Source: Candidatus Ozemibacter sibiricus (GTDB taxonomy: Bacteria; Muiribacteriota; Ozemobacteria; Ozemobacterales; Ozemobacteraceae). Taken from it: 64,000 nucleotides of DNA. The position numbers were made by a program, and so were the translations under genes. Where the stretch lies: NCBI GenBank assembly GCA_003327425.1, contig QOQW01000002.1, forward strand, positions 124,001 through 188,000, written 5' to 3'. Positions 1 to 48,880 of this stretch are shown one piece after another. The notes below the pieces were generated by a model. The model worked only from the letters and a program-made list of their open reading frames with translations, did no database searches and was not told where the DNA came from. Within the stretch, counting starts at the first letter, position 1. The number at the start of each line of letters is the position of its first letter.

Positions 1-741
1 GCCGCCCAGACCCGCCGCGCCGCCGAACTGCTGCCGGCCGAGTTCGCCCCGCGCCGCGAGGCGATCCTGCGCGGCATGACCGTCAACCAGGTCATGAACC
101 TCCTCGAGATCTTCTTCTACGAGAAGCTGCTGGCGGCCCGTCCCGACCTCGTGCAGATCGAAGGCGGCGAGCACCTCGAGCGCGCCCGCCAGGCGGGGCG
201 CGGCCTGATCGTCCTGGCCGCCCATTTCGGCAATTGGGAGTTGCAGGCCTACACCCTGGTCCGCCTCGGACTCCCCCTCCACGTCATCGCCCGCCCCCAG
301 GCCCTCGACCAGATGACCGCCTTCATGAACAGCTTCCGGGAACGGCGCGGCGTGCGCGTGCTGATGGCCAACAATCTGACCGAATCCCTGCGCTTGCTGG
401 GTCAGGGCGCGGCGATCGGCATCGTCTCCGATCTCGACGCCAAGGAACACGGCTTCCTGGTGCCGTTCTTCGGCCGGCCCGCCTCCTTCTACCCGACGCC
501 GGTCATCCTGTCGGTGCGGGGACGCGCGCCGCTGCTGCCGATGTTCATGGAGCGCCAGGCCGATGGCTCGCATCGGTTGTGCATCGAACCGCCCCTCGTC
601 TGGGAACGTGGCGAGTCGATGACCGCCCGCATCCGCCGGTATGTCGAACGGTATGAAGCGGCCTTCCGACGGCGACCCGATCTGTGGGTCTGGTTCCACG
701 AACGCTACGCGCATGCCCACCTGGCGCGAGTCGAACCATGA
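1..741 (+). CDS. LpxL/HtrB-type lipid A acyltransferase, 5'-truncated
   Basis: The reading frame is open from the first base, so the start lies outside the window and 246 residues are visible. The HFGNWE sequence (about residues 75-80) is the H(X4)E/D acyltransferase motif of the LpxL/LpxM/HtrB family, which adds a secondary acyl chain to lipid A at the inner membrane using acyl-ACP. Family members are near 300 residues, so about 50 residues including the N-terminal membrane anchor should be missing. The stop overlaps the start of the lptC-like gene (ATGA), which places it in an LPS biogenesis operon. Family assignment is firm; which acyl chain or position it modifies cannot be told. Confidence 0.85.
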   Translation, partial: AAQTRRAAELLPAEFAPRREAILRGMTVNQVMNLLEIFFYEKLLAARPDLVQIEGGEHLERARQAGRGLIVLAAHFGNWELQAYTLVRLGLPLHVIARPQALDQMTAFMNSFRERRGVRVLMANNLTESLRLLGQGAAIGIVSDLDAKEHGFLVPFFGRPASFYPTPVILSVRGRAPLLPMFMERQADGSHRLCIEPPLVWERGESMTARIRRYVERYEAAFRRRPDLWVWFHERYAHAHLARVEP

Positions 742-9928: not shown

Positions 9929-9955
9929 ATGGTCCATCTTTTTGAGAGGGAGTGA
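9929..9955 (+). other. Eight-codon leader reading frame overlapping the next start
   Basis: ATG at 9929 reads M-V-H-L-F-E-R-E and stops at TGA 9953-9955, which overlaps the GTG at 9952 (GTGA). The ATG lies within a few bases of the transcription start expected from the promoter at 9911-9919. It may be a coupling leader or chance. Confidence 0.25.
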
Positions 9956-11169
9956 TTCATATTCTGGACATTCTGAAGAAGATAGCCCTGTTCGAAGGCC
10001 TCGAAGATTCCGATCTGGCCAAGGTCGCCCAGGTCACCAAGGAGCGGTTCTGCCCGAAGGGTACCATCCTGTTCAGAGAGGGAGACATCGGCGATGCCTT
10101 CTACCTGATCAAGGAAGGCCAGGTGGAGGTCCTGAAGAAGGACGGCGGCGCCGAGAAGGTCGTCAAGACCATTTCCCACACCGACAAGGACAACTTCTTC
10201 GGCGAGATGTCGCTGGTCGGCGGCGCCCCCCGCAACGCAACGCTGCGCACCTCCACCGATGCCACCTTCCTGGTCATCTCCAAGACCGACTTCGACATGA
10301 TGCTGCGGCTCAATTCGTTCATCGCCCTGCGCATCATGACCGCGCTGTCCAGCCGGTTCCGAGCGGCCACGCCCGAGGCGGCCCAGGAGGTCAAGCTCGG
10401 CAAGCTGGTCGTCATCTTCAGCCCCAAGAGCGGAGCCGGCAAGAGCATCTTCGCGGCCAACCTGGCTTCTGGGCTCGCCAAGCTGGCCAAGGCCAAGACG
10501 CTGCTCGTCGATCTCGACCTGCAGTTCGGCGATCTCGCCTTCATGCTCGGCCTGCAGCCGAAACGAACCATCGCCGATCTCGTCGAGAACCCCACCGACA
10601 AGCTCGAGGTGTTCAAGGAGTATCTGGTCGATCACAAGGCCGGATTCGCCGTCCTGGCCGCCCCCAAGAAACCCGAGCAGTCCGAGATGATCAACTCGAG
10701 CCACCTGCGAGCCTTCGTCGAGCTGGCCCGCAAGCACTACGACTACGTCATCCTCGACACCCACTCCCTCTTCCAGGACCTGACCATCAACGCCATGGAC
10801 ATGGCCGACGCCATCTACCTGCTGATGCTGCCCACATTGAATCACATCAAGAGCATGCATCAGTGCCTCAAGGTCATGGAGAACCTCAAGTACCCTCCCG
10901 ACAAGATCAAGCTCATCCTCAACCGGGACGGCTCGCAGCACGCCCGCTCTCGCGAGGAAATCGAGGGAGGCATGAAGCGGAAGGTCGATTTCACCTTGAA
11001 AGACAGCTGGCCGCAGATCGCCGCCCTGATCGATACCCAGAAGACGGTCTTCGAACAGGACAGCTCGTCCGAGTATACGGCCAACATGGTCGCCATCATG
11101 GAGAAGCTGACCGGCCAGACCTTCGCCAAGGAAGGCAAGAAAGGCTGGCTCAGCAGCCTCTTCGGCTGA
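9952..11169 (+). CDS. Cyclic-nucleotide-binding domain fused to CpaE/MinD-like ATPase
   Basis: 405 residues. Residues ~5-135 form a CRP-type cyclic-nucleotide-binding domain with an intact phosphate-binding cassette FGEMSLVGGAPRNATL (E85, R94). Residues ~150-400 form a ParA/MinD-class ATPase with the deviant Walker A KSGAGKS (159-165) and a Walker A' Asp in LLVDLDLQFGD, most like CpaE, which positions pilus machinery or polar complexes. CpaE normally has a receiver-like N-terminus; here the sensor slot is a cNMP domain, so ATPase localisation may respond to cAMP or cGMP. No pilus genes are nearby. The GTG start is uncertain: the AGAGGG sits only one base upstream. Single-gene unit with its own promoter and terminator. 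Confidence 0.8.
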   Translation: MIHILDILKKIALFEGLEDSDLAKVAQVTKERFCPKGTILFREGDIGDAFYLIKEGQVEVLKKDGGAEKVVKTISHTDKDNFFGEMSLVGGAPRNATLRTSTDATFLVISKTDFDMMLRLNSFIALRIMTALSSRFRAATPEAAQEVKLGKLVVIFSPKSGAGKSIFAANLASGLAKLAKAKTLLVDLDLQFGDLAFMLGLQPKRTIADLVENPTDKLEVFKEYLVDHKAGFAVLAAPKKPEQSEMINSSHLRAFVELARKHYDYVILDTHSLFQDLTINAMDMADAIYLLMLPTLNHIKSMHQCLKVMENLKYPPDKIKLILNRDGSQHARSREEIEGGMKRKVDFTLKDSWPQIAALIDTQKTVFEQDSSSEYTANMVAIMEKLTGQTFAKEGKKGWLSSLFG

Positions 11170-11348: not shown

Positions 11349-11849
11349 TCAGCGCCGGGCCTCTCGCACCATGTGTCCCACCTGCGGCAGGATCAGGCGG
11401 GTGGCGGCCAGACGCACCGCCTTGGTCGACCCGGGCAGGCAGATCAGAATGCGGCCGGCGGCCAGGCCGGCCGTCGCCCGGCTGAGCATGGCGGCCGGAC
11501 CGATCTGATGGTAGGAGACCAGCCGGAACAGTTCGCCGAACCCCTCCAGTTCCTTCTGCATCAGGCGGCGGGCCACTTCGATGGTGCCATCGCGGGAGGT
11601 GAGACCGGTCCCGCCATTGGTGACGATGACATCGAGCGGTTCGCTCAGCCAGGTTCGCAAGGTGGCCTCGATGGTCGCCGGATCTTCGCGGATCACCGCA
11701 TAGCGGACGATCTCGTGACCGGCCTGCCGGAACAGATCCTGCAACAAGGATCCCGAGCGGTCGGTGGCGGCATCGCGGGTATCGGACAGGGTCAGGATGC
11801 CGATCCGCAAATGGCGGGGAGCTTCCGCCTCATGTTCGTGATGGGACAT
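11349..11849 (-). CDS. moaB: MoaB/MogA-family molybdenum cofactor protein
   Basis: 166 residues. The MoCF-binding fold is clear: LRIGILTLSDTRD at the N-terminus, the glycine motif NGGTGLTSRDGT in the middle, and LPGSTKAVRLA near the end. MoaB/MogA proteins act at the molybdopterin adenylation stage. A TTG at 11870 would give 7 more residues, but AGGAGG lies at the right distance before the ATG at 11849, which also overlaps the upstream stop (TGATG), so the shorter form is used. It is the last gene of a four-gene operon with signalling genes; no other molybdenum cofactor gene is present, so its reason for being here is unclear. Confidence 0.85.
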   Translation of the reverse strand: MSHHEHEAEAPRHLRIGILTLSDTRDAATDRSGSLLQDLFRQAGHEIVRYAVIREDPATIEATLRTWLSEPLDVIVTNGGTGLTSRDGTIEVARRLMQKELEGFGELFRLVSYHQIGPAAMLSRATAGLAAGRILICLPGSTKAVRLAATRLILPQVGHMVREARR

Positions 11850-13216
11850 CAGATCGTCCTCCTTCGCCAATGGTGGCGGGCGGGAGGCAGCAAGCCCGCT
11901 CGCCGGCTCGGACGGCGACCAGACCGGCGCCGGCCGGCGGCCTGGCCGCCTCGGCCCGGCCGCGGCGGGGTTTTGATCTCGACGGCCAGCAGCGAGACAT
12001 CATCGTGCAGACCGGCTTCCCCGCACCAGGTTTCGGCCGCCGCCAGCACTCGTTCGACGGCTTCTTTCAGCGGGCACTCGGCGTTCGCGCGCATGGCTTC
12101 GAGCATCGCCCCCTTCCCGAAGGGGACCCGGTCCGGCGACATCGCCTCGGCCAGACCGTCAGAAAACAGGAACATCCGATCGCCCGGATGCAGTCGTGTC
12201 TGCCGGCCGGCGAACTCGGCCTCATCAACGAACCCGATGGGATACCCACCGCCCGGCAGAGTGCGAGCCCGTCCGCGTCGATCGAGCACGATCGGCATCG
12301 GATGCCCGGCCGAGGCATATCGGAACACCCCCGAGCGCAGATCGTAGATACCATACAAGATCGTGAAAAACTCTTTGGTTTCGAGATCGATCGGAAAACT
12401 GCGATTCAATTCGGCCAGCACTTCGGACGGCGAGCGCAAGCGATAGCCAGGCGGGGCTTCGATCAATTCCTTGAGCAGGGTGGACTGGGCGGGAAAGGGC
12501 GACAGCACCCGGCTGAGCGACACCGACAGCAGGGCGGCCGAGGTGCCGCTGCCCGCCACATCGAGCACGTAGAACGCCACCTGATGTTCGTCGAGCCGGA
12601 AGACGTTCAGCCCGTCGCCCGCCAGCTCGGACCGAGGTTTGTAGACCCAGGCAAACTCGGCCTGATCGACCGCCGGCAAGGTGGCCGGCAGCAGGGACGT
12701 CTGGATCTTGGCCACCGCATACAGGTCTTTCTTCATTCGTTCGTTGGCGCGCAGGATCAGGGCGTTGGCCGCGGCCAGGCGCTGCAGGCCGGCCTGCAGA
12801 TCCTGCTGCAGACGAACGACCCGCTCCCAGGTCCGGAGGCGGGCCTGGATCTCCAGAGGTTTCCAGGGGCGCCCAAGCACGTCATCGAACACCCCGATCG
12901 CCGAACTGTCCGCGGTCAGGGTTGTTTCTTCATTCAACAACAACACCAGAAAACAACAGGCCGATTCTCCCGTGGCTTCGCGTAGACGCCGCCCCAGAGC
13001 GAGACCTCCGCCGCCAGGCAGATCTTCCCGGATCACGACCACCCCGGGGCGATGTTCCCAGAACGCGGTTTCCGCCGCCGCCAACGACTCTGCCTGCACC
13101 AGGGTGAACCCCAATCCAGCAAGGATGGGACGAAAAGAAGTCAGGACTTCATCATCACGACCAGCCAACAGGATCGTCAACCCCGGGCGCGCGCGCCCGG
13201 TCATCTCGTTCGTCAT
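11849..13216 (-). CDS. Degenerate receiver domain fused to SpoIIE/PP2C-type phosphatase
   Basis: 455 residues. Residues ~12-130 fold like a response-regulator receiver: acid pair D21-D22 and K119 (GRPWKP) are present, but the phospho-acceptor position before the DLPGG loop is R63 instead of Asp. A helical linker (~130-185) joins a SpoIIE-type PPM phosphatase with metal-binding Asp residues in AGDGLNVF, VLDVAGSG, FSDGLAEA and HDDVSLL. Such enzymes usually dephosphorylate anti-sigma-factor antagonists. Arg at the acceptor site suggests phosphorylation-independent input. The C-terminal 35 residues are Arg/Gly-rich. The ATG at 13216 overlaps the coaE-sseB stop (ATGA); 28 upstream codons lie inside that gene and were excluded. 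Confidence 0.85.
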   Translation of the reverse strand: MTNEMTGRARPGLTILLAGRDDEVLTSFRPILAGLGFTLVQAESLAAAETAFWEHRPGVVVIREDLPGGGGLALGRRLREATGESACCFLVLLLNEETTLTADSSAIGVFDDVLGRPWKPLEIQARLRTWERVVRLQQDLQAGLQRLAAANALILRANERMKKDLYAVAKIQTSLLPATLPAVDQAEFAWVYKPRSELAGDGLNVFRLDEHQVAFYVLDVAGSGTSAALLSVSLSRVLSPFPAQSTLLKELIEAPPGYRLRSPSEVLAELNRSFPIDLETKEFFTILYGIYDLRSGVFRYASAGHPMPIVLDRRGRARTLPGGGYPIGFVDEAEFAGRQTRLHPGDRMFLFSDGLAEAMSPDRVPFGKGAMLEAMRANAECPLKEAVERVLAAAETWCGEAGLHDDVSLLAVEIKTPPRPGRGGQAAGRRRSGRRPSRRAGLLPPARHHWRRRTI

Positions 13217-14670
13217 ACTCTGACTCCGATGGGCTGGACCGTGGTCGAGACGACCTCGACCAGGGCGGGATCGTTCAGCACCAGGAAATCGACGCAGCAT
13301 CGTCCGGCCAGATGAGCCTCGACCCCGTTCATGGCCTCCTGCCAGAACCCCTCGAAGGATTGCTCGGTCACTGCGGCAGCCGGCAGGACGCCCACGAACA
13401 GGCTGGTTTCGCGGCCAGCGACGACGGCATCGAACAGATAGACCTCGGCCACGGCCGGATGACGCCGTCCCACCTGCCGCAGGTGGTCGACCAAGGCCGC
13501 CGGCACCGGAGGATCGGGCGGCGAAATGATCAAGGCGGCCCCCGCCGCGATCTCCACCGTTTCGGGACGGGGATCGCCGCGGCCCTCGGCGCCGGGGCGC
13601 GAAGCCGCCAGAGCCCGCAATTTGTCGACCAGGTCAGCCTCCAGCCGAAGCACGGCGCCCCCCGGCCGCGCGATGACGAACCCCCGGCCGGTGGCGGCAG
13701 CCAGGCCGGTCAGCAGATGCCGCAGCCGGACATGGATGTGCCGTCCAGGATCGATCCCGTGCTCTCGCGCCAGCGCGCGCGACGAGAAGAGAGACACCAT
13801 GCCATCGGGCCCGAGACGGGGGCGGCGTCCGTCGGCCTCGACAGGAACCAGGAACACCCCGTCGAGCAGATGGGACAGGCCGCAATGCGGCAGAGGATCG
13901 ACCTGGGCCAGGTTCTCGACCGCGGCGGCCAGCGCCGGATGGTCGAAGGCGCAGTCGGTATGCGGCTGCCAGTCTTCCGCCGGGGAAGCGGCGGGGGAAG
14001 ACGGACAAGCAGAGAACTCGCGAGCGTCAGTCATGGGTGGATTCTCCGAACAGGCAGTTGGAACGAGGGGAGAGGCGAAGGCGGCGAAGGTTCGATCGAC
14101 CCATTCCCGCAGATGATCGAGCGAGCCGTCATTGTCGCAGAAGATGACCCGGCCATCGCCGACCGGCTCTTGATCCTGGGCGGCCAGGCGGGCCCGCGCC
14201 CGTTCGGGGGACAGCCCCCGTCCGGTCATGATCCGCTGGAGCCGCGTGTCGGCCGCCGCCCGGACATAGATGATCCAGCGGCAGAGGCGGTCGAGCCCCA
14301 TCTGGTACAGGAGGGCAGCATTGATGATCACCCCGGCGCCGCCCCCAGCCAGGGTTTCCCTGACCCGCTGCTCCACCTCGGCGATCATCGGCGGATGGAC
14401 GATCTCGTTGAGACGAGCGCGCGCCACGGGGTCGGCGAAGACCAGCCGGCCCAGCTCGCGCCGATCGACGGCCCCCTGCCCGTCGAGCACGGACGATCCG
14501 AACGCGGCCGCCACCTGCTCTCGAATGTCGGGGCGCTGCAGGACAGCATGTCCGATTTCATCTACTTCCAGGTTGACGAACCCATGCCGGGCGAACAATC
14601 GCCCCACGGTGCTCTTGCCCGCACCGATCTGCCCGGTGATGCCGATGACCGCTGGGCCTGGCTCAGGCAT
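13213..14670 (-). CDS. coaE: Dephospho-CoA kinase (CoaE) fused to an SseB-like protein
   Basis: 485 residues. Residues 1-212 are a complete dephospho-CoA kinase with P-loop GQIGAGKS (13-20) and the lid region typical of CoaE; it phosphorylates dephospho-CoA to CoA. Residues 213-485 match the two SseB domains (SseB_N with DGVFLVPVEADGR and VSLFSSRALAREHG; SseB_C from PVPAALVDHL). SseB in E. coli confers serine tolerance when overproduced; its biochemistry is not known. The join falls exactly before a Met at codon 213 (ATG at 14034) that has GGAG nine bases upstream, so a free SseB could also be made. The start overlaps the kinase gene by 8 bases and the stop overlaps the phosphatase gene. Confidence 0.8.
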   Translation of the reverse strand: MPEPGPAVIGITGQIGAGKSTVGRLFARHGFVNLEVDEIGHAVLQRPDIREQVAAAFGSSVLDGQGAVDRRELGRLVFADPVARARLNEIVHPPMIAEVEQRVRETLAGGGAGVIINAALLYQMGLDRLCRWIIYVRAAADTRLQRIMTGRGLSPERARARLAAQDQEPVGDGRVIFCDNDGSLDHLREWVDRTFAAFASPLVPTACSENPPMTDAREFSACPSSPAASPAEDWQPHTDCAFDHPALAAAVENLAQVDPLPHCGLSHLLDGVFLVPVEADGRRPRLGPDGMVSLFSSRALAREHGIDPGRHIHVRLRHLLTGLAAATGRGFVIARPGGAVLRLEADLVDKLRALAASRPGAEGRGDPRPETVEIAAGAALIISPPDPPVPAALVDHLRQVGRRHPAVAEVYLFDAVVAGRETSLFVGVLPAAAVTEQSFEGFWQEAMNGVEAHLAGRCCVDFLVLNDPALVEVVSTTVQPIGVRV

Positions 14671-16690
14671 GCGGCGCTCCGACCTCTGCCTCGGGGCGAA
14701 GGGGGAGGTGGACGGTGAACGTCGAGCCCACTCCCAGCACGCTGTCGACATCGATCCGGCCGCCATGCTCGTCGACGATGCGCTGGGCCAGCGGCAGGCC
14801 CAGTCCGGTGCCATCTTCCTTGGTGGTCATGAAGGGGTCGAAAATGGCGCGCAGCCACTCCTGGGGAATGCCGACGCCGGTGTCTTGAATGGCGGTGGCG
14901 ACCCAGCCGGGCCGAACCTCCATCGAGATGCGCAGCCGCCCGCCCTGGTGGGAGGCCTGGATGGCATTGGTCAAGATGTTCAGGAACACCTGTTTCAACT
15001 GGTCGGGGTCGCCGATCAACGGCGGGATCTCGGGGGGAAATTCGCGTTCGAGGCGGAGCCCGGCTTTCTTGAGCTGATTCTGCAACAGCAGCAGGCAGGC
15101 CTCGACGACCTCGGGCAGGATCACCTGCACCGCTTTCGGCTTGCTGGGGCGGGCGAAGTCGAGCAGGTTGACGATGATGCGTTCGAGCCGCTCGATCTCG
15201 CGCTGGATGATCTCGATCGGCTCGCGGCGCGGATCGCCGGGTTGCAGTTCGGAGACCTGCAGTTGCACGATCATCTTGATGCCGGTCAACGGATTGCGGA
15301 TCTCGTGGGCGATGCCCGCCGCCAGCACGCCCAGCGCCGAGAGCCGGTCGGCCCGCTTGAGTTGATCCTCGAGGCGGATGATCTGGGTGATGTCCTTGAC
15401 GAAGCAGGCGGTGCCCAGGATCAAGCCATGCTCGTCACGGAAGGGGAAGGCGGTCACCTCGAGGGTCTTGGGCGGATGCGTCTCTTCGAGCCGGATGCGG
15501 GTGTTCTCGAGCGTGACCTTGCGCTCGAGCACGCTGGCGATCACTTCGGCCAGCGGGCCGGGAATCGGCAGCGACGATGATTGCAGGCTCCAGCCCTCCG
15601 GCAGGGGCTGGCCCAGTAGGCGGGTCATTTCGGAGTTGACGAAGGACACCAGGCCGTTGGTATCGAAGATCAGCACCCCCGAATTCATGCTCTCGAGAAT
15701 GTGCTGGGTGAACCCGCGCAACCGCACGAGATCTTTGAACAATTGATCGACCGAGCCGATCTGCGTGGTGATGATGCGCAGGCCGATGATGTCCTCGTCG
15801 CGGTAGGCGTAGGGCTTCTTGCTGGCGATGGTGACCACGCCGACCAGCTTGCCCGACACCACGATCGGCAGGATCAGCACCGAATTGAAATCGGCGGTAT
15901 AGGTCAGATGCGGCTTCATCTCCTGGGCCGCCTTGCCGATCGGCCCCTCGCCGAGGGCGATCTTCAGCGGGAACCCCCCGGTCGCCGACTCCTTGCGGGC
16001 TTCGAGGGTCTTGCCATCGGCCGCCAGCAGGTGCAGCACGTAGGCGTCATAATCGATGAAACTCTGGACCACCTTGCCGAGGGACTCGTAGACATCCCGC
16101 AGGTCGATCAAGGATTCGGTCCGTTGCGAGATCTCATAGAGAGCCGACAGCCGGGAATTCTTGTGGATCATCTCGGTGTGCATCAGGAAGTTCTCGATGA
16201 GCGTGCCCATGAACGGGGTCACCATCTCGAGGAAGTTCTGATGCTCGCTGGTGAAGGTCAGGCCGCCCGCACACCGGTAGATGAACAGCAGGGCGACCGG
16301 ACGCCCGGCCAGTTTGATCGGCAGCACGAGCGCGATGCAGCCATCGGGGCAGGGGCTCTGGAACCCGTGCTGGCGCAGGATTTCGCGATCCCAGAACAGG
16401 GTGTGCCCGTCGAGGAACACTTTGTAGCAGGCTTCCAGGAACGGCTTCTCCCAGGTCGGCCGCTGTCCGTTCGAGGGCAGGTTCTCCAGGAGCGGAACCA
16501 TTTCTCGCAGCTTCTCATGCGGGATCAGAACCAGCCCGCCCCGCGCCTGGGTGAACTCGAGGGCCCGTTCGAGCAGGAACAACACTCCCCGATCGGGGCT
16601 CAGATGCCCGATGACCTGGGCGATCTCCCCGAGCAACAGGCCTCCTCCGGTCAGCGCCGGGGGGACGGGCGGCAGCGTCGGCGTCTCCAT
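14663..16690 (-). CDS. Cytosolic histidine kinase with GAF-GAF-PAS input
   Basis: 675 residues and no membrane helix. Order: GAF-like domain (~25-165), second GAF (~180-325), PAS (~340-450), HisKA with H-box AHEIRNPLTG (His near residue 461), and HATPase_c with N-box LTNAIQAS, G1 DTGVGIP and G2 GTGLGLPL. It should autophosphorylate in response to a small ligand or redox signal bound by the GAF/PAS part. The genes below it include only a receiver lacking its Asp, so the true phosphotransfer partner is probably elsewhere. The ATG at 16690 has GGAG 8 bases upstream; a further 168 upstream codons show no protein features. First gene of the operon. Confidence 0.88.
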   Translation of the reverse strand: METPTLPPVPPALTGGGLLLGEIAQVIGHLSPDRGVLFLLERALEFTQARGGLVLIPHEKLREMVPLLENLPSNGQRPTWEKPFLEACYKVFLDGHTLFWDREILRQHGFQSPCPDGCIALVLPIKLAGRPVALLFIYRCAGGLTFTSEHQNFLEMVTPFMGTLIENFLMHTEMIHKNSRLSALYEISQRTESLIDLRDVYESLGKVVQSFIDYDAYVLHLLAADGKTLEARKESATGGFPLKIALGEGPIGKAAQEMKPHLTYTADFNSVLILPIVVSGKLVGVVTIASKKPYAYRDEDIIGLRIITTQIGSVDQLFKDLVRLRGFTQHILESMNSGVLIFDTNGLVSFVNSEMTRLLGQPLPEGWSLQSSSLPIPGPLAEVIASVLERKVTLENTRIRLEETHPPKTLEVTAFPFRDEHGLILGTACFVKDITQIIRLEDQLKRADRLSALGVLAAGIAHEIRNPLTGIKMIVQLQVSELQPGDPRREPIEIIQREIERLERIIVNLLDFARPSKPKAVQVILPEVVEACLLLLQNQLKKAGLRLEREFPPEIPPLIGDPDQLKQVFLNILTNAIQASHQGGRLRISMEVRPGWVATAIQDTGVGIPQEWLRAIFDPFMTTKEDGTGLGLPLAQRIVDEHGGRIDVDSVLGVGSTFTVHLPLRPEAEVGAPHA

Positions 16691-16709
16691 CTGTCTTGCT
16701 CCGGGAGGG

Positions 16710-16720
16710 AAGGTACCACA
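16710..16720 (-). promoter_or_regulatory. Extended -10 promoter of the histidine kinase operon
   Basis: On the reverse strand TGTGGTACCTT, identical over 11 bases to the -10 region of the promoter at 34680-34708. The hexamer TACCTT lies 20 bases before the start codon. The -35 is weak. Confidence 0.4.
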
Positions 16721-16910
16721 CATTCGGTTCGCCCGCCACCCCCTGCTCATTCCAGCGTGCCAGTTCAACCGGACTGGACGCCAGCGGCTGACCATGGCGA
16801 CCTCGGAAGCTCCCTTGTCGAACCGCCTGGCCTCACGACCGGCCTGCTTGGCCAATCCCCTGCGGTAGCCCCAGGGCGCATGGCTCGATGGCCGACGGCC
16901 GACGGCCTGG

Positions 16911-16940
16911 TTGCCCCCGTCCGATGGTTCATGGTACATT
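16911..16940 (+). promoter_or_regulatory. Promoter of the citF-like gene
   Basis: TTGCCC, an 18-base spacer, then TACATT preceded by TGg (extended -10). It lies 45 bases before the ATG at 16986. Confidence 0.45.
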
Positions 16941-16985
16941 CTGACCAGTTTGCGCACGACCGTTAACTGCAGAGAGAGGGCAATC

Positions 16986-18536
16986 ATGGACTGGACCCAC
17001 AACAGCCTCGGGCGCCGGGTTCCCACCCATCTGGGCAACCGGCCGGTTCGACCTTTCAAGAGCGCCTTCACCGGACAGGTAAGCGGCACCATGGCCACCC
17101 GCCGCCTGGCCACCACCCCGCACCGCGGCCCGATCGACAAGGTCGTCGGCAGTTGGGACGAACTGCTCGACCGGCTGCCGCTCAGGTCGGGCATGACCGT
17201 GTCCTTCCACCATCACCTCCGCAATGGCGATCGTGTGGTGAACGAGGTCATGACCCGCCTGGCCGCCCGCGGTCTGAAAGACCTGGTGGTCGCCCCCTCG
17301 GCCCTGTTCCCGGTCCATGACCAGCTCGTCGACCTCATCAAGAGCGGGGTCATCGCCCATGTCGAAGGCTCGATGAACGGCCAGGTGGGCGTCGCCTGCT
17401 CGAAGGGGCTGATGAAGAACACCGCGGTGCTGCGTTCGCATGGCGGCCGCTACCGCGCCATCCAGGACGGCGACCTGCGCATCGACATCGCCTTCATCGC
17501 CGCCCCCACCGCCGATCCGACCGGCAATGCCACCGGCGTGCTGGGGAAGAGCGCATGCGGCCCCATGTGCTACGCCCTCCCCGATTCCCTGTGGGCGGAT
17601 CAGGTGGTGGTGATCACCGACAATCTCGTGCCCTACCCCTGCATTCCGTGGTCCATCCAGGGCGGCAACGTCGATTACGTCCTGCCGGTCGACACGATCG
17701 GCGACCCCACCCAGATCGTCTCTGGCACCACCCGACTCACAAAGTCTCCCACCCAGCTGTTGATCGCCGAATACACCGCGCAGTTCATCGAGGAAAGCGG
17801 CATCATGAAAGACGGCTTCTCCTTCCAGGCCGGCGCCGGCGGCATCTCGCTGGCAGCCAACGTCTTCCTCGCCGAACGCATGCGCAAGAAGGGCATCAAA
17901 GCCAGTTTCGCCCACGGCGGCGCCAACCAGGTGCTGGTCGACATGCTCAAGGAGGGCCTGCTGGGCGCCATCATCGACCTGCAGAGCTTCGATCTCGCGG
18001 CCGTCCAGTCCTGTCGTGAGAATCCCCGGCATATCGAATCGACGCCCCACACCTCGTACAACCTGCATGCCAAAGGCTGTCTGGCCAACCAGCTCGATGT
18101 GGCCATCCTGGGCGCCACCGAAATCGATCTCGATTTCAACGTCAACGTCAACACCCACAGCGACGGCCTCCTCCTGCATGGCATCGGCGGGCATTCCGAT
18201 GCCGCCGCCGGTTCGACCTGCTGCATCATCACCGCTCCGTCCTTCCGCAAACGGATGCCGATCATCCGCGAAAAGGTGACGACCATTTCGACCCCGGGCG
18301 AGGTCGTCGACGTGGTGGTCACCGAACGCGGCGTCGCCATCAATCCTCGCCGCCCCGATCTGATCGAACGGTTGAAGGGCAGCCGGTTGCCCCAGATCAC
18401 CCTGCCCCAGCTCATGCAGGAGACCTACGCGCTGACGGGGGTGCCCGAGCAACCCCGCCTGGGCGAACGCCCTGTCGCCGTCATCGAATGGCGAGACGGC
18501 ACCATCCTCGACGTCGTCTACCAGGTCCTCGACTGA
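16986..18536 (+). CDS. citF: Citrate lyase alpha subunit (citrate CoA-transferase), orphan
   Basis: 516 residues, the normal length for CitF. The sequence is conserved throughout, including VTRLAARGLKDL-like and SMNGQVG segments and the conserved GIGGHSDAAAGS near the end, matching the alpha subunit that exchanges acetyl-thioester and citryl groups on the lyase's acyl carrier. The ATG at 16986 follows a purine-rich ribosome-binding site (GAGAGAGGG); an earlier in-frame ATG at 16911 lies upstream of the promoter and was rejected. The partner genes citD, citE, citC, citX and citG are absent nearby, so either they are elsewhere or this protein works as a stand-alone CoA-transferase. Confidence 0.85.
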   Translation: MDWTHNSLGRRVPTHLGNRPVRPFKSAFTGQVSGTMATRRLATTPHRGPIDKVVGSWDELLDRLPLRSGMTVSFHHHLRNGDRVVNEVMTRLAARGLKDLVVAPSALFPVHDQLVDLIKSGVIAHVEGSMNGQVGVACSKGLMKNTAVLRSHGGRYRAIQDGDLRIDIAFIAAPTADPTGNATGVLGKSACGPMCYALPDSLWADQVVVITDNLVPYPCIPWSIQGGNVDYVLPVDTIGDPTQIVSGTTRLTKSPTQLLIAEYTAQFIEESGIMKDGFSFQAGAGGISLAANVFLAERMRKKGIKASFAHGGANQVLVDMLKEGLLGAIIDLQSFDLAAVQSCRENPRHIESTPHTSYNLHAKGCLANQLDVAILGATEIDLDFNVNVNTHSDGLLLHGIGGHSDAAAGSTCCIITAPSFRKRMPIIREKVTTISTPGEVVDVVVTERGVAINPRRPDLIERLKGSRLPQITLPQLMQETYALTGVPEQPRLGERPVAVIEWRDGTILDVVYQVLD

Positions 18537-20724: not shown

Positions 20725-23163
20725 ATGGAACCATCCAATCGCTCGGGCCTGAGGGAACTGCAGATCGCCCAGGGGCTGGTCACCCTGCGATGGGCGGCCA
20801 TTCCCATCCTGTTCGGGTTCGGCATGCTGGCCACTCGCGGTTTCGGGATGAGCTTCGGCATCACCCCCATCTACCTGCTGTGCTGCCTCCTGGCGCTCCT
20901 CAACGTCTTCTTCACCATCCACATCGCCATGCTGTCGCGCCAGTTGGTCCTGCGGCGGGGCACCGCCGCCCTCAAGCGGTACCTGCTGGCCGTCATCAAT
21001 CATTTCCAGGCGAGCGTCAAGGAACGGGGGGTCTCGGCCCTCTTCAGTCTGCCCCGGCTGTTCCTCCGACTTTTCTTCATCCTTTTCCTCTTCCTCCTCG
21101 AAAGCCTCAAGGGCGTGCGATTCAATCCCCTCTCGCTCGACAACATCATGCACACCCAGGTGACCGGCGACATCCTGTTGCTGACCCTGCTGGTCCGTTT
21201 CACCGGCTCGCCGGAAAGCCCCCTCATCTTCCTGGCCGTCGTTCCCGTCATCGTAGCCGGGGCCGTTCTCGGTTTCTATACGGGCGCCGTTTACGCCACC
21301 CTGGCTGCCGCCGCGTACCTGGCCCTCAGCCTTCTGGTCAATGCCCGCCTGCTGACCCACATCAAGTTCTACGGGCCTCAGATCGGCGATCTCAGCAACT
21401 CGCCAGAGTGGGCCATCTCGAGCTTCTTCACGCTGATGACCGCCCTGCTCGGGGCCGCCTATCTCGCCCACAATCTGACGTCCGTGTTCAAGGAACGGAT
21501 CTTCTTCCTGCATCAACTGCTGGAGAAGAGCCGCCGGGAAGGACTGGCCTATGCCGCGGTGGCCGAGGCGGTGCCGGCCGCCTGGTTCTTGTTGGATGCC
21601 CAAGGGAATGTCCTCAAATACAAACGGGGGAAAATCTCCATTCTGCCTGGGAACCTCCTCGGCCAGAATATCCTGGAAGCATTCCCCGCCTTCAAGCAAT
21701 ATGGCATGGGCTATGTGATCCAGTCCGTCATTACCGGAGGACGAGCCCGCGAGGTCGAACGGATCAAGTTCCAGACCCCCGAAGGGACCTCCCACACCCT
21801 GGCCTGCCGGCTTCTTCCGCTGATCGATGCCGAAAAACGCCCGCTCGTCATGCTGCTGGCCGAGGATATCACCGAGTCGCTCTTCCTCCGCGAGCGCGTC
21901 GAGGAACTCAAACAGGCCCTCGATGCCACCCAGATCGAACTCGAAAAGACCGCCCTCGAGGGCAAGGAAACCAACCAGCAATTGATGAAGACCCTCAAAG
22001 TGGCGAGCGAACGCACGATCGAAGTGGAAACGCTCAGCCAGCGCGTGCGCGACCTGGAGGCCCAGAAACTGGCCATGGAAGACAGGATCTCCGGCCTGCT
22101 CACCGAGACCGCCGCGCTGAAAGCCACCAACGACGCCATCGTCACCGACCTCAACCACAAACAGGTGATCCTCGAGGAGGTCGTCGAGCTGCTGCGCCAT
22201 TCGACCCAGATCGACGCCCTCGCGGCCCTCATCGAACGCCGCACCAAGAGCCTCTTCAAACTCGACAATACCTGCCTGCACGTCTTCCGCAGCCCGGCCC
22301 TGCCCACGCGCACGAACGAGATCCTCGACACCCGCAAGGCCTCCCCCCGCCTGCTGGATCTGCCCCGCAAGAATCCCAAGGTGCTCGAGCCGGTGCTCAA
22401 CGAAGGCCAGCCGGTCGTCATCAAGGCCGAGGTCCATCCCGACCACTCCGCCTCGGTGGCCATCAGCAACGGCCCCGTCCAGCGCCTGGTCGCCTACATC
22501 CCCGTGCGGCACGGCAAGGAGATCCTCGGCATGATGATGCTCGAGCGCTACGGCCCCGAAGAGAATCCCGAACGGCTGATCAGCATGCTGACCTACTACC
22601 TGTCGCACACCGCCATCGCCCTGAAGAATGCGCTCGCCACCCGCTCGCTCGAGACCCAGCAGCAGAACCTCACCGCCACCATCAAGACCCTCGACGCCCA
22701 GATCGAAAGCTTCCTCGATCTGGCTCGCATCTCGATGACGGAAGGCGATCAGCCCTTCCAGAAATATCTGCAGGCCCTCGGCCGCATCTGTGGCGCCGCC
22801 GACGGCATCATCCTCCGCCTCCACAGCGACGGCACCATCCAGCCCCTGGCCCGGCTCGACTCGACCCGCCGGCTCGAACTGCGACCTCTCGAAGAGAAGG
22901 TATTCAAGACGCTCCGCGCCAATCCTTCGCACAAGGCGGTCATCAAGGAGCCCACCGAAGGGGTCACCCTGCTGGGCTACCCGCTCAACCAGGGCAATCG
23001 CCTGGTTGGCGCGCTCTTCCTGCAGATCCCCAACCCCGACCCTGCTCTACTGAGCATCGTCGACGTCGGCGCCAAAATGGCCGCCGATAGCCTCGGCCTC
23101 TTCGTCCTCAACGAAGAGAAAGAGCTATGGGAAAACTTCTACAAGGCCAATCTGACCGCCTGA
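20725..23163 (+). CDS. Membrane sensor with PAS, coiled coil and two GAF-like domains, no output domain
   Basis: 812 residues. Six to seven hydrophobic helices occupy about residues 15-255, then a PAS-like domain (~275-390, with LLDAQGNVLKYKRG), a long coiled coil (~390-475), a GAF-like domain (~480-640), a short coil and a second GAF-like domain (~660-805). No kinase, cyclase, GGDEF, phosphatase or methyl-accepting module follows, so the protein must signal through a partner, or act as a scaffold. GGAGGAGG lies just before the ATG. The secreted-protein gene upstream may supply the periplasmic input. Architecture is well supported; function is unknown. Confidence 0.75.
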   Translation: MEPSNRSGLRELQIAQGLVTLRWAAIPILFGFGMLATRGFGMSFGITPIYLLCCLLALLNVFFTIHIAMLSRQLVLRRGTAALKRYLLAVINHFQASVKERGVSALFSLPRLFLRLFFILFLFLLESLKGVRFNPLSLDNIMHTQVTGDILLLTLLVRFTGSPESPLIFLAVVPVIVAGAVLGFYTGAVYATLAAAAYLALSLLVNARLLTHIKFYGPQIGDLSNSPEWAISSFFTLMTALLGAAYLAHNLTSVFKERIFFLHQLLEKSRREGLAYAAVAEAVPAAWFLLDAQGNVLKYKRGKISILPGNLLGQNILEAFPAFKQYGMGYVIQSVITGGRAREVERIKFQTPEGTSHTLACRLLPLIDAEKRPLVMLLAEDITESLFLRERVEELKQALDATQIELEKTALEGKETNQQLMKTLKVASERTIEVETLSQRVRDLEAQKLAMEDRISGLLTETAALKATNDAIVTDLNHKQVILEEVVELLRHSTQIDALAALIERRTKSLFKLDNTCLHVFRSPALPTRTNEILDTRKASPRLLDLPRKNPKVLEPVLNEGQPVVIKAEVHPDHSASVAISNGPVQRLVAYIPVRHGKEILGMMMLERYGPEENPERLISMLTYYLSHTAIALKNALATRSLETQQQNLTATIKTLDAQIESFLDLARISMTEGDQPFQKYLQALGRICGAADGIILRLHSDGTIQPLARLDSTRRLELRPLEEKVFKTLRANPSHKAVIKEPTEGVTLLGYPLNQGNRLVGALFLQIPNPDPALLSIVDVGAKMAADSLGLFVLNEEKELWENFYKANLTA

Positions 23164-34821: not shown

Positions 34822-37521
34822 ATGATCTGTCAAACACATCGTTCGCGGTCACCGCTCCTGCTTTTGCTCTGCCTCTTCGCGTTCCTCGGCGCCTTCGCCC
34901 TCGAAGCCGCTCCTCGAGCGGCGGCACCTACCCGCCAAGGGCCGCCCCCCGCCAAGAGGAAATGGACGATCATGGTCTTCATGGCGGCCGACAACAACCT
35001 CGAAGGCGGTACCGAGGTCGACGTCAACGAAATGGAAGCAGTCGGCTCCACCGACGACGTCGCCATCCTCGTCGAAGCCGACCGCATCGGCAAGTATTCC
35101 CAGCACAGCGAATGGCAATGGGAAGGAACCAAACGCTTCTACATCCAGAAGGATTCCAACCCCAAGATGGTTTCCTCGCCTGTCCTGCAAGACGTGGGCG
35201 AGATCGACTCCGCCTCCCCCGAGGCTCTCCTGGACTTCGTGCGATGGTGCAAACAAATCGCACCGGCCGAGCGGTATGCCCTCATCCTCTGGAACCATGG
35301 CACCGGTTGGAAGGAGATTTCCCCCGACGTCTACGCCTCCATGGACGAGGCCCCCGTCCTTTCCCCCGAACTGACGGCGGCCATGCACAGCATTTCCTAC
35401 AACATCTCCTATGATAATTCCTCGAACACTTCGATGGATATCCCTTCTCTGCAGACAACGCTGGCGAAAGTCGCCGACATTCTCGGCCAGCCCATCGACC
35501 TGCTGGGATTCGACGCCTGCCTGATGCAGATGCTCGAGGTCGCCTATGCGGCGGCCCCCGTCGCCCGTTTCCAGGTCGGGTCCACCGATCTCGAACCCGA
35601 TCGCGGCTGGCCGTATGACACCATCCTCCGTGCGCTGGCCGCTCAACCGACCATGGACGGCCGCAAACTGGGCGAACTCATCGTTTCCAGCTACAAAGCC
35701 TCCTACCAGTCGGGCAGCCAGGGCAACGTCGCCGTCACCCTCTCCCTCCTAGACCTCAGCAAGGTGAAAGAGTTCACCCAGACCCTCGGCCGCCTGACCG
35801 CCGCCATGAAAAGCGGCATCGCCGAGATCGACACCTTCGAACAGGCCCGCGACGAGACCCTCAAGTACGTGTACAAAGACTACCTCGACCTGGGGCATTT
35901 CCTGAAACTGCTGAGCAGCCGCTCCAACAACCCCGACGTGAAAAAGGAAGCCGCCGCCACCTACGAGGCCCTGGTCGGCAGCAGCGGTTCCCCCGGGCTC
36001 GTCGCGGCCAATGCCTACACCGGCGTCAAATACAAAGAGGCCCGTGGCCTCTCGATCTTCTTTCCCGAGCGCTCTGGGTTCCGGGCCTACAAAAAGCGCT
36101 ATGCGGCCCTGAGCTTTGCCCGCCAAGGCGGTTGGTTCGATTTCCTCGAGGAGTTCGAGACCCCCAGTCTGCCCTATCTGAAGATCGTCGAGGCCATGTT
36201 CGTCGATGCCAACCAGGACGGCCGCATCGCGGCCGGCGAAGAAGTCAAAGTCAAGCTCAAAGTCAAGAATTTCGGGAAAAAAGCGGCCAGCGCGGTCAGC
36301 CTGACGGCCCAGACGAGCAGCAGCCTCCTCGACCGCAAATCCTACGCCGCCTCCCCCAGTGGACTCCCCGCCCCAGGCAAGGAAGCCATCATCGACGCCT
36401 TCAGCTTCACGGTCGACGGCAACGCCCCCGAGAATTCCGAAGTTTCCTTGCTTTTCACCCTCTCCGGCGAAGGGATCCCCCCCTCGACCTTCCGCAGCAC
36501 CTTCTTCATCAAGACCCCGTTCTCCACTTCCGGGCATGTGCTCCTCGTTCTGACCGACGGATTTTCGCCGGCCAGCCCCGTTCTGCAGGCCATGTTCACG
36601 GAAGCGAAGATCAAATTCGACCTGTGGGACCGCATGCTCGACGGCGATCTCAAGCCCGAGGTCCTCAAGCGCTACCTCGATGGCTGGGTGTTCATCTCGT
36701 CCCAGGATTCCTCCGACCAGCAGCAATTGACCAAATCTGAGATCGAAGCCCTATCCGGATTCCTCAAACTGGGCGGCAAAGTGGTCCTCTCCGGCCAGGA
36801 TCTGGCCTTCTCCCTCCGCGACAATGCCTTCCTGCGCGATTTCTGTCGCATCGCCTTCGTCCAGGACGACATCAACGTCCATGTCCTCTCAGGGGTCGGG
36901 GGGTTCGCCAAGAATGCCACCTTCCAGATCTTCGGAGGGGACGGGGCCAATAATCAGAAGTGGCCCGACGAAGTCGACCCCGTCGGCGGGGCCAAAGTGC
37001 TGATGAAATACAACGAGGGCGCCCGCGACATCGCCAACGACAAAGACATGAACGGGCCCGATCTCAAACCCGGCTCGCTCTCGCGCGGCATCAAATCCTC
37101 CGGCGCGGCCGCCGTCGCGGTCAACGATGGCTATCGGCTGATGTTCTTCGCCTTCGGCATCGAAGCGATCAATGCGGCCTCCCAGCGCCAGTCCCTCCTG
37201 GCCGATATCCAGACCTTCATGAATCCCCCGGTCGAAACCCAGGTCCGCGATCTGGCCGCCACGTCGCATCGGCGCACCACCCGCGCGCCCCGCTCCTCCC
37301 GGGAGCGCCTCGAGGACATCGATCTGCTGTCGAGCCTCGAAAGCCGCCTGACCCGCACCATCAAACAACGGATGGAAACCGACCCCTCCTTCGGTCGGCG
37401 CATCCTGGAAACCATCGAGGGATTGCCGGCAGCTTCCCGCGGCAGCATCCCGCAGTTCGAAAAAACCATCCGTACCCTCTTGGAATTTCAAAATCAGCAT
37501 GGTACGGTGAATTCGCGGTAA
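34822..37521 (+). CDS. Clostripain-like (C11 family) secreted cysteine peptidase
   Basis: 899 residues. A signal peptide (~10-33) is followed by the C11 peptidase domain (~47-420): WTIMVFMAADNNLE at its start, the catalytic His in LILWNHGTGW and the catalytic Cys in LLGFDACLMQMLEVA. Next come a Ca-binding-looking DANQDGRIAAGE, an Ig-like/CARDB-type region (~450-565), and a Rossmann-like domain (HVLLVLTDGF onward, ~570-800) resembling GATase-type accessory domains, ending in a helical tail. C11 enzymes cleave after Arg or Lys. The protein is exported and may act on surface or host proteins. It has its own promoter and a terminator directly downstream. Confidence 0.85.
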   Translation: MICQTHRSRSPLLLLLCLFAFLGAFALEAAPRAAAPTRQGPPPAKRKWTIMVFMAADNNLEGGTEVDVNEMEAVGSTDDVAILVEADRIGKYSQHSEWQWEGTKRFYIQKDSNPKMVSSPVLQDVGEIDSASPEALLDFVRWCKQIAPAERYALILWNHGTGWKEISPDVYASMDEAPVLSPELTAAMHSISYNISYDNSSNTSMDIPSLQTTLAKVADILGQPIDLLGFDACLMQMLEVAYAAAPVARFQVGSTDLEPDRGWPYDTILRALAAQPTMDGRKLGELIVSSYKASYQSGSQGNVAVTLSLLDLSKVKEFTQTLGRLTAAMKSGIAEIDTFEQARDETLKYVYKDYLDLGHFLKLLSSRSNNPDVKKEAAATYEALVGSSGSPGLVAANAYTGVKYKEARGLSIFFPERSGFRAYKKRYAALSFARQGGWFDFLEEFETPSLPYLKIVEAMFVDANQDGRIAAGEEVKVKLKVKNFGKKAASAVSLTAQTSSSLLDRKSYAASPSGLPAPGKEAIIDAFSFTVDGNAPENSEVSLLFTLSGEGIPPSTFRSTFFIKTPFSTSGHVLLVLTDGFSPASPVLQAMFTEAKIKFDLWDRMLDGDLKPEVLKRYLDGWVFISSQDSSDQQQLTKSEIEALSGFLKLGGKVVLSGQDLAFSLRDNAFLRDFCRIAFVQDDINVHVLSGVGGFAKNATFQIFGGDGANNQKWPDEVDPVGGAKVLMKYNEGARDIANDKDMNGPDLKPGSLSRGIKSSGAAAVAVNDGYRLMFFAFGIEAINAASQRQSLLADIQTFMNPPVETQVRDLAATSHRRTTRAPRSSRERLEDIDLLSSLESRLTRTIKQRMETDPSFGRRILETIEGLPAASRGSIPQFEKTIRTLLEFQNQHGTVNSR

Positions 37522-47437: not shown

Positions 47438-48880
47438 GATCTGGCCTCCCCAGGTGGTGAAATGATGGCTTGGCAAGCTGGAAATTGCAAGAACCGTACC
47501 CAGCTGGCGTCGGCGCCTCTGGCCGCTGAAAGCCTTTATTGATGAGGGTTTTTGCACACCCGCACGGTTCTCTGGGCGGCCGCGTAGGGATAATTTCCCT
47601 GCTCCTAATTTCCGTGTTAGGGATTTTTTCCCCGGCTGTTCGGGGAGAGAAGGTGGTTACCTATGCCACCTCCTCCAGTGACCTTCTCGTAGCCTCTTTC
47701 ACCCTGTCCTCCGTCCCCGAATTTCAAGGACGACGGGTGTTCATCGACAAACTGACATTCAACGCTTCAGGGGCATTCTTCACTCTCACTCCCGTTCCCG
47801 CGTCTACGACCCCATACCCACCCTGGATCGAGCGGTACCCTATTGATGCCCCCTGGGCAGCAGCGGTGACCTCGACCACGACGAATCTTAGCCACCTAAC
47901 CCCTATGCAGATGGGCCAGGTTCCCGAAGATTCGGCAATGGTTGCCCTGCGGGGACGCTTTATTATTTCCCGGAATGATTTTTTGACCAATGAAATCTGG
48001 GTCACCATTTTTTCTGATCAATCGAAGCTTTTCGAAGGCCCCTCCGAATATTCATTTAAAGCATCTCCCGGCCCGGTGGGAAACATTCTCCCACATGCTC
48101 TGGTCATCACAAAAACCCGCTGTTATCTTCTCTGGCATGCTCCTGGGCAGCAAATCAAGGGGTGTTTTTTCTCCCACCCTTCAGCGATTACCCAATTTGA
48201 TCTAGGAGTGACCGACGCTTCGGCGTTATATGGAGTAACAGGGATTTCTGCAACAGACGGATGGAATGAATGGGTGGTCGTCGGTTATCCCAAGACAGAC
48301 AATGATCTAGCAATAAGGGCCTTCCCTGCAACCGATTCCATTCTAGCCAACGGCTCTCCGCCAGGAAGAACAGATTCCCCTCTCATTCCTGTCGCGACTT
48401 TGACTTGCAGCAAGGTCGTCATGGTCCAGAATCCTCGCACTCGACAGGTTTTCGTGGGATATACCAATCCCACCAATCAATTTGAAAGCTATGTTGCCAC
48501 CTTTTCACCTACAGGGATCCTCACTCCCACAGAAGGTCCAACATTGATCAGCCTATCTGGCTCTCCCACGCCTTCCAATTCCACCCTTGAACTCGCCGGA
48601 TGTACGAATTTCGAGACGTTCCTGGCCATCAACCGGGGGACAAGCCTAACCGGATTCAGCCGGCGAAGCACTTTCGAATTCGTTCGTACCTTTCCTGGCG
48701 ATACCCCCTATCCGTCTTGCTTCCAATTCAAAACTGCTGGTCGGGATTATCTGGGGCTTCTCATTTTTGAAAACTTCAATCAGATGAGTTTCTTCCATCG
48801 GCCCCTCATCTATCCCTCCGCAGGAGCGTGGAATCCGCAAACCAAGGAAATCTATCTGGAAGGCCCGCCTTGGCCAGGCA
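46750..48880. other. Patch of lower G+C spanning two divergent gene starts
   Basis: Codon third positions and base composition change visibly; for example the 60 bases from 46861 hold 20 G or C, against 36 of 60 from 55561. The patch covers the 5' halves of the lipoprotein gene and of the giant repeat protein and their 104-base shared upstream region. It ends where the Big_5 repeats begin. No convincing promoter was found in the shared region. Confidence 0.6.

Follow-up and report, generated by a model that had tools for sequence, protein, structure and literature searches.

The window analysed here is a 64,000-nucleotide (nt) stretch of the genome of Candidatus Ozemibacter sibiricus (G000:C27:124001-188000, G000 being the label of this genome). 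On its minus strand, at 11349-16690, lie a GAF-PAS histidine kinase (hereafter HK), a frame joining the dephospho-coenzyme A (CoA) kinase CoaE to an SseB-like part, a receiver-SpoIIE phosphatase (hereafter PPM) and MoaB (Table 1). Successive genes overlap by 8, 4 and 1 nt (HK/CoaE-SseB, CoaE-SseB/PPM and PPM/MoaB). Frames and coordinates confirmed what a preliminary description had read from the letters, i.e. four reverse-strand genes overlapping by 1-8 bases, and its naming of a GAF/PAS kinase, CoaE, a SpoIIE-type phosphatase and MoaB was borne out by Pfam; the gene set, which it had called non-standard, is indeed unusual. Two domains had been overlooked: the receiver-like N-terminal domain of PPM and the probable second GAF domain of HK. 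The locus was compared among 24 genomes of the family, including the window's own and two congeners (G001 and G002), and a CoaE match was found in 20. Only HK and CoaE are constant, their linkage being conserved family-wide; the tail behind them is variable, and in the window's genus the phosphatase receiver has lost its acceptor aspartate.

Table 1. Features of the minus-strand gene quartet and of the spacer in front of it (window coordinates, except where residues are indicated)
Feature	Position	Strand	Evidence
Histidine kinase HK	14663..16690	-	Pfam; coaE-adjacent in 20/20 family genomes with CoaE
HK domains (residues)	probable GAF ~13-178, GAF 196-313, PAS 328-434, HisKA 454-515, HATPase_c 560-665		
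CoaE-SseB frame	13213-14670	-	
CoaE (dephospho-CoA kinase) part	14071..14670	-	P-loop GITGQIGAGKS, Pfam 7e-31
SseB-like part, after low-confidence linker	13213..14034	-	weak SseB_C match
PPM, whole gene	11849-13216	-	
Degenerate receiver domain of PPM	12833..13216	-	Response_reg 0.0021; alignment with G007 and G016 receivers
PP2C/SpoIIE phosphatase domain of PPM	11849..12832	-	Pfam SpoIIE 4.6e-42, conserved Asp residues
MoaB	11349..11849	-	Pfam MoCF_biosynth 1.5e-31; TIGR00177 above cut-off
Intergenic stretch between operon and divergent citF	16691..16985	.	presumed operon promoter site, none detected

The HK protein matches HisKA (4e-15), HATPase_c (3e-28), GAF_2 (3e-14) and PAS (5e-12) in Pfam. 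Its N-terminus gave a GAF-like fold match (Z 14.7 over 149 residues, root-mean-square deviation 3.0) in a model whose predicted local distance difference test (pLDDT) score is only 59, which makes a second GAF domain probable there. The motifs AHEIRNPL (H box), FLNILTNA, DTGVGI and GTGLGL were recognized; with the H box, G1 and G2 all present, HK has the phosphorylation and ATP-binding motifs predicted for an active HisKA kinase. Our N-box pattern matched 8 of the 20 family kinases, the window's among them, and, being probably too narrow, was not used for the others.

The HK start (16690) is separated by 295 base pairs from the divergent citF gene (16986-18536), coding for the alpha subunit of citrate lyase (CitF, 1.5e-151). 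A scan for promoters and terminators returned one promoter-like site (0.6 expected) and four terminator-like sites (2.9 expected), which amounts to no signal. A defence island was rejected, none of the four proteins having a PADLOC match at E up to 0.001.

Conservation of the kinase-coaE junction

In all 20 family genomes with CoaE, HK stands immediately 5' of coaE. Measured from the end of the HK stop codon, the CoaE start codon lies in each of them somewhere from 8 bases upstream to 3 bases downstream, a layout that would be expected for translational coupling. The flanks, in contrast, are rearranged, and the genes on either side differ in several genera: upstream are found citF, or a pair resembling a 5'-nucleotidase and a peptidase (named from sequence only), or unrelated genes, and the downstream neighbours of the operon vary as well. 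That the junction recurs in 20/20 indicates that the arrangement is more than chance. Conservation of gene order in relatives, which had been put forward as a check on the locus, is thus found for HK and coaE, while the tail genes vary. Three rows are weak for HK, as it lies on two contigs in G011, is cut by the contig end in G022 and contains a run of N in G008; in G015 the contig stops inside coaE and the tail beyond is unseen. The G008 assembly is 64% complete (N run at 2486-2491 of L086), and there the HK orthologue is in frame with an N-terminal part that resembles thioredoxin reductase, a name likewise taken from its sequence (L086 433-2541).

Outside the family the linkage was not seen. 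In other families of the phylum, 11 of the 12 loci given had a CoaE hit (L122 had none), and HK was matched at none of the 11, two of which reach only ~450 and ~730 bases 5' of CoaE; seven CoaE loci from other phyla were likewise without an HK match. Within the family, G003, G009, G010 and G023 matched neither CoaE (E up to 1e-3) nor HK (E up to 1e-100). Among the papers listed in literature searches, none deals with an operon of HK and coaE, as judged by titles and the openings of abstracts.

Behind coaE, SseB is found in 6 of the 20 genomes, the C-half of SseB in the CoaE frame in 4, PPM in 7 and MoaB in 12. On a midpoint-rooted tree of HK and CoaE, which has low support at two deep nodes (0.23 and 0.29), PPM, SseB and MoaB each occur in both main clades; we therefore read the pattern as an ancestral full operon followed by later losses.

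Plain co-transcription would be another account of the linkage: a shared promoter would balance expression without any joint function, and coaE would depend on translation arriving from the HK frame. The tightness of the junction in 20/20 genomes, the free variation of the appended genes and the presence in the window's genome of a single CoaE match, which must therefore be expressed, all agree with it. Two observations do not: the neighbours are scrambled in several genera with HK-coaE intact, and the kinase is conserved better than the enzyme (pairwise identity of 59.9% for HK, in 20 genomes of which three are partial, versus 46.3% for CoaE). We consider this account rather unlikely, though likelier than the other alternatives to our proposal.

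CoaE-SseB frame and MoaB

The CoaE part scored 108.2 bits with TIGR00152, well above the cut-off of 65.55, and its best Foldseek match is CoaE 4i1u (E 1.4e-13); curated cut-off, P-loop and modelled fold all point to a dephospho-CoA kinase. The model of the whole frame (mean pLDDT 74.2, predicted template modelling score 0.41) has a confident CoaE fold and a folded C-terminal half, joined by a linker (residues 201-231) with pLDDT under 50; the best 50 Foldseek matches listed are CoaE and other small kinases.

For the C-terminal half, the SseB label of the preliminary description is weak on the window copy and better supported by the group as a whole. In the window, SseB_C (PF14581) was matched at 0.0013 in the full protein and at 5e-4 by the part alone, which scored 20.6 bits where the cut-off is 22.5. 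All nine copies scanned (of 10, G004 being left out) match SseB_C at E up to 1, the best at 1.2e-6. At the same threshold none of the nine matches the SseB N-terminal domain, which we take to be PF07179; four of them hold the C-half only. Running the SseB profile against PDB sequences gave matches at chance level only.

The frame is open from CoaE through SseB in the window and in G002; G001 has SseB as a gene of its own. Where that gene begins, the window has an in-frame ATG (14034) preceded by GGAG, both at the corresponding position in the two congeners, so that the window 'fusion' may still yield free SseB. In G005, G012, G017 and G021 the C-half of SseB alone is joined to CoaE; the three C-half junctions examined show no GGAG-ATG, although two of them hold an in-frame ATG. 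A CoaE with an added C-terminal part in one chain has been described for mycobacteria (CoaE-UPF0157; PMC2765170), and the window CoaE resembles it in its extra C-terminal part. It differs in that this part is SseB-like and has kept a start site of its own in the window's genus. The NCBIfam model PRK03333, presumably that of the two-domain CoaE form, was matched below cut-off and at positions 4-196 of 395 only.

MoaB scored above the TIGR00177 cut-off (110.3 versus 85.35 bits) and missed that of the narrower TIGR02667 moaB_proteo (158.8 versus 222.4). It is the sole stand-alone MoaB-sized protein among four MoCF matches in G000, a genome in which MoaC is also found, as would be the case for a MoaB/MogA enzyme serving a molybdenum cofactor pathway. 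MoaC was detected in 10 of the 12 genomes whose operon includes MoaB versus none of the 8 others (Fisher p 0.0007, the relatedness of the genomes being ignored); leaving out G015 gives 10/12 versus 0/7. Five operons (G005, G012, G017, G021 and G022) have MoaB without PPM. Outside this comparison, the four genomes in which no HK-coaE locus was found have MoaC; a MoaB-sized match was not found in G003, G009 and G010, and a partial one lies at a contig start in G023. MoaB is best read as an ordinary cofactor enzyme. A role as a repurposed signalling part was rejected, since this is the only stand-alone MoaB-sized gene of the genome and it tracks MoaC.

The MoaC gene of G000 is at G000:C14:3290-3694. 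MoaC frames of the family have 308-389 residues versus 155-245 in the other families of the phylum, which suggests an extra domain. A stand-alone MoaB-sized gene is found elsewhere, in genomes with no MoaC match, at G015:C258, G018:C162 and G020:C79; in G015 and G018 it adjoins a MoeA-sized gene.

Output of the kinase

The PPM receivers are intact in two relatives, where Response_reg is matched at 1.6e-27 (G007) and 3.7e-24 (G016). In the window's genus the match is only 0.0008-0.0021 and the acceptor Asp is replaced by Arg (G000), His (G001) and Arg (G002), the conserved Lys of the window receiver being also replaced by Arg. Of the other copies, G014 has Asn as acceptor residue with a Response_reg match of 2.5e-14; G004 keeps Asp in the acceptor column, but its conserved Lys is replaced by Ile and Response_reg is not matched. 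Phosphatases of the RsbY/RsfR type combine a receiver bearing an acceptor Asp, which is present in G007 and G016 and absent in G000-G002, with a SpoIIE/PP2C domain bearing conserved Asp residues, which alignment recovers in PPM and which we take to be the metal-binding positions. The best NCBIfam match of PPM is RssB (NF045505, 1.9e-32). The order of receiver and PP2C-like domain is that of RssB of Pseudomonas, but the score is 112.8 bits (cut-off 700) and the degenerate part is the receiver instead of the phosphatase.

Pairs of a kinase and a receiver-PP2C phosphatase are known from partner-switching systems, i.e. RsfS-RsfR of Mycobacterium smegmatis and RsbK-RsbY of Bacillus cereus (PMC10950880). 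By analogy, HK could switch PPM: the receiver would be phosphorylated, a STAS protein would be the target of PPM, and an anti-sigma factor would be released or trapped, so that cofactor status would be coupled to partner switching, as the preliminary description had suggested. Phospho-control of PPM by HK is plausible in G007 and G016, and the partner-switching domains expected elsewhere in the window's genome are there: 20 STAS matches and 18 HATPase_c_2 matches (10 over cut-off, HK being one of the other 8). The operon nevertheless differs from the two known systems, having no STAS or anti-sigma gene, coaE between kinase and phosphatase, and a kinase with GAF and PAS in place of CHASE3. Ordinary phospho-control of the window PPM by HK is unlikely because the acceptor Asp has been lost and the receiver match has collapsed, and PPM as a canonical HK target was rejected for this genus, the acceptor being missing in all three genomes. 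With PPM in just 7/20 operons, and MoaB found without PPM and following MoaC, the suggested tie between cofactor status and partner switching is not supported for this genus; we regard the HK-PPM switch as improbable.

HK is better conserved than CoaE even where PPM is missing, which argues that its main partner should lie elsewhere. The dimerization and histidine phosphotransfer region is 79.5% identical (18 genomes) and looks alike in genomes without PPM. AtoS and ZraS head the NCBIfam matches of HK and NR(II) ranks lower, every one below cut-off; these kinases pair with NtrC-type regulators. HK shares their PAS-HisKA-HATPase core; unlike them, it scores well under the curated cut-offs, has GAF domains in front and has no NtrC-type regulator next to it. 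Three small genomes, G011, G006 and G020, were surveyed, with 13, 11 and 7 response-regulator matches and 9, 7 and 4 HisKA kinases, respectively. HK was the sole close reciprocal best hit across the three (52-59%), and one NtrC-type regulator is common to them. This regulator (G000:C54:133552-134946) is matched once in each of 23 family genomes, G013 being the sole one of the 24 without it, and belongs to a conserved block with era, a phosphotransferase system (PTS) EIIA protein and an RsbW-like ATPase; no kinase H-box motif was flagged in the listed frames around it in five genomes. This orphan of the era-ptsN locus is the best candidate for the partner of HK.

Several points weigh against that pairing, which we infer from conservation only. 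The relatives are draft metagenome assemblies and the kinase survey was limited to HisKA. Other kinases recur as well: a hybrid-kinase group is found in all three surveyed genomes (~28%), G006 and G011 share another kinase without an adjoining receiver hit (39.6%), and G006 has one more. A second NtrC-type regulator without H-box neighbour exists in 18/24 family genomes. The four genomes without HK and CoaE matches do have the first regulator, as would fit assembly gaps but also independence, and this regulator was not found in G013, though G013 has HK. Finally, no sigma-54-type site above chance was seen 5' of HK in 17 genomes, 14 of 200 shuffles reaching the score in the best cases.

The orphan regulator gene is at L145 1489-2880 and L182 7553-8947 (the latter being the G000 copy), between era and the PTS EIIA gene, followed by those of the RsbW-like ATPase and an ndk-like protein. 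Its motif reads GAFTDA in L145, L152 and L137; sigma-54 activators usually carry GAFTGA.

Elsewhere in the window, a cyclic-nucleotide-binding domain is fused to a ParA/MinD-like ATPase (9952-11169) convergently to the operon, the cluster of this gene being present at 11 of 21 loci compared. Other genes code for an 812-residue protein that matches PAS, GAF and, weakly, a PilS-like membrane region but no kinase domain (20725-23163), a clostripain-family (C11) peptidase of 899 residues (34822-37521) and, in a frame of 2754 residues, repeated Big_5 immunoglobulin-like domains (47539-55803).

A proposed history of the operon

The explanation that we favour, with about even confidence, is that of an old HK-coaE operon which formerly had its own receiver-phosphatase, whose tail is eroding and whose kinase now signals elsewhere. 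The operon would be ancestral to the family, with a sensor kinase (GAF, GAF, PAS) directly followed by coaE as fixed core, and it would also have carried the output of the kinase, a receiver-PP2C phosphatase, plus SseB and MoaB. A STAS anti-sigma antagonist may have been the substrate of the ancestral PPM, as it is for RsbY or RsfR. If the receiver of the window's lineage cannot take phosphate in the usual way, the phosphatase would now be constitutive or controlled by binding, and the main signalling target of HK would be a regulator from another locus, most likely the era-ptsN orphan. CoaE and MoaB would work as ordinary enzymes, their dosage being fixed with that of HK by co-expression.

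It is conceivable, at low probability, that CoaE or the SseB tail is a physical co-sensor, HK binding the enzyme that is translated from the shared mRNA and thereby sensing CoA synthesis, much as PII is a co-sensor for NtrB: the unbroken HK-coaE linkage, the PAS-HisKA core with NR(II) among the NCBIfam matches and the SseB sequence in the CoaE frame in two genera would suit such a role, but HK has GAF and PAS domains of its own and SseB was not found in 10 of the 20 operons (counting G015). Just as doubtful, in our estimation, is a more elaborate version: HK-coaE would be a CoA-status sensor with CoaE, the last enzyme of CoA synthesis, as co-sensor; its output would run through the orphan regulator beside era and ptsN; and SseB would be a tuning module, fused to CoaE on more than one occasion.

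The operons form a natural series, from an intact receiver-phosphatase to a receiver-dead one to none, of use for the study of how a kinase persists once its neighbouring output is lost. Across the family this kinase is never seen apart from the essential coaE gene and is the better conserved of the two, which suggests that CoA supply and a global regulator are connected; such a connection would concern a little-studied phylum.

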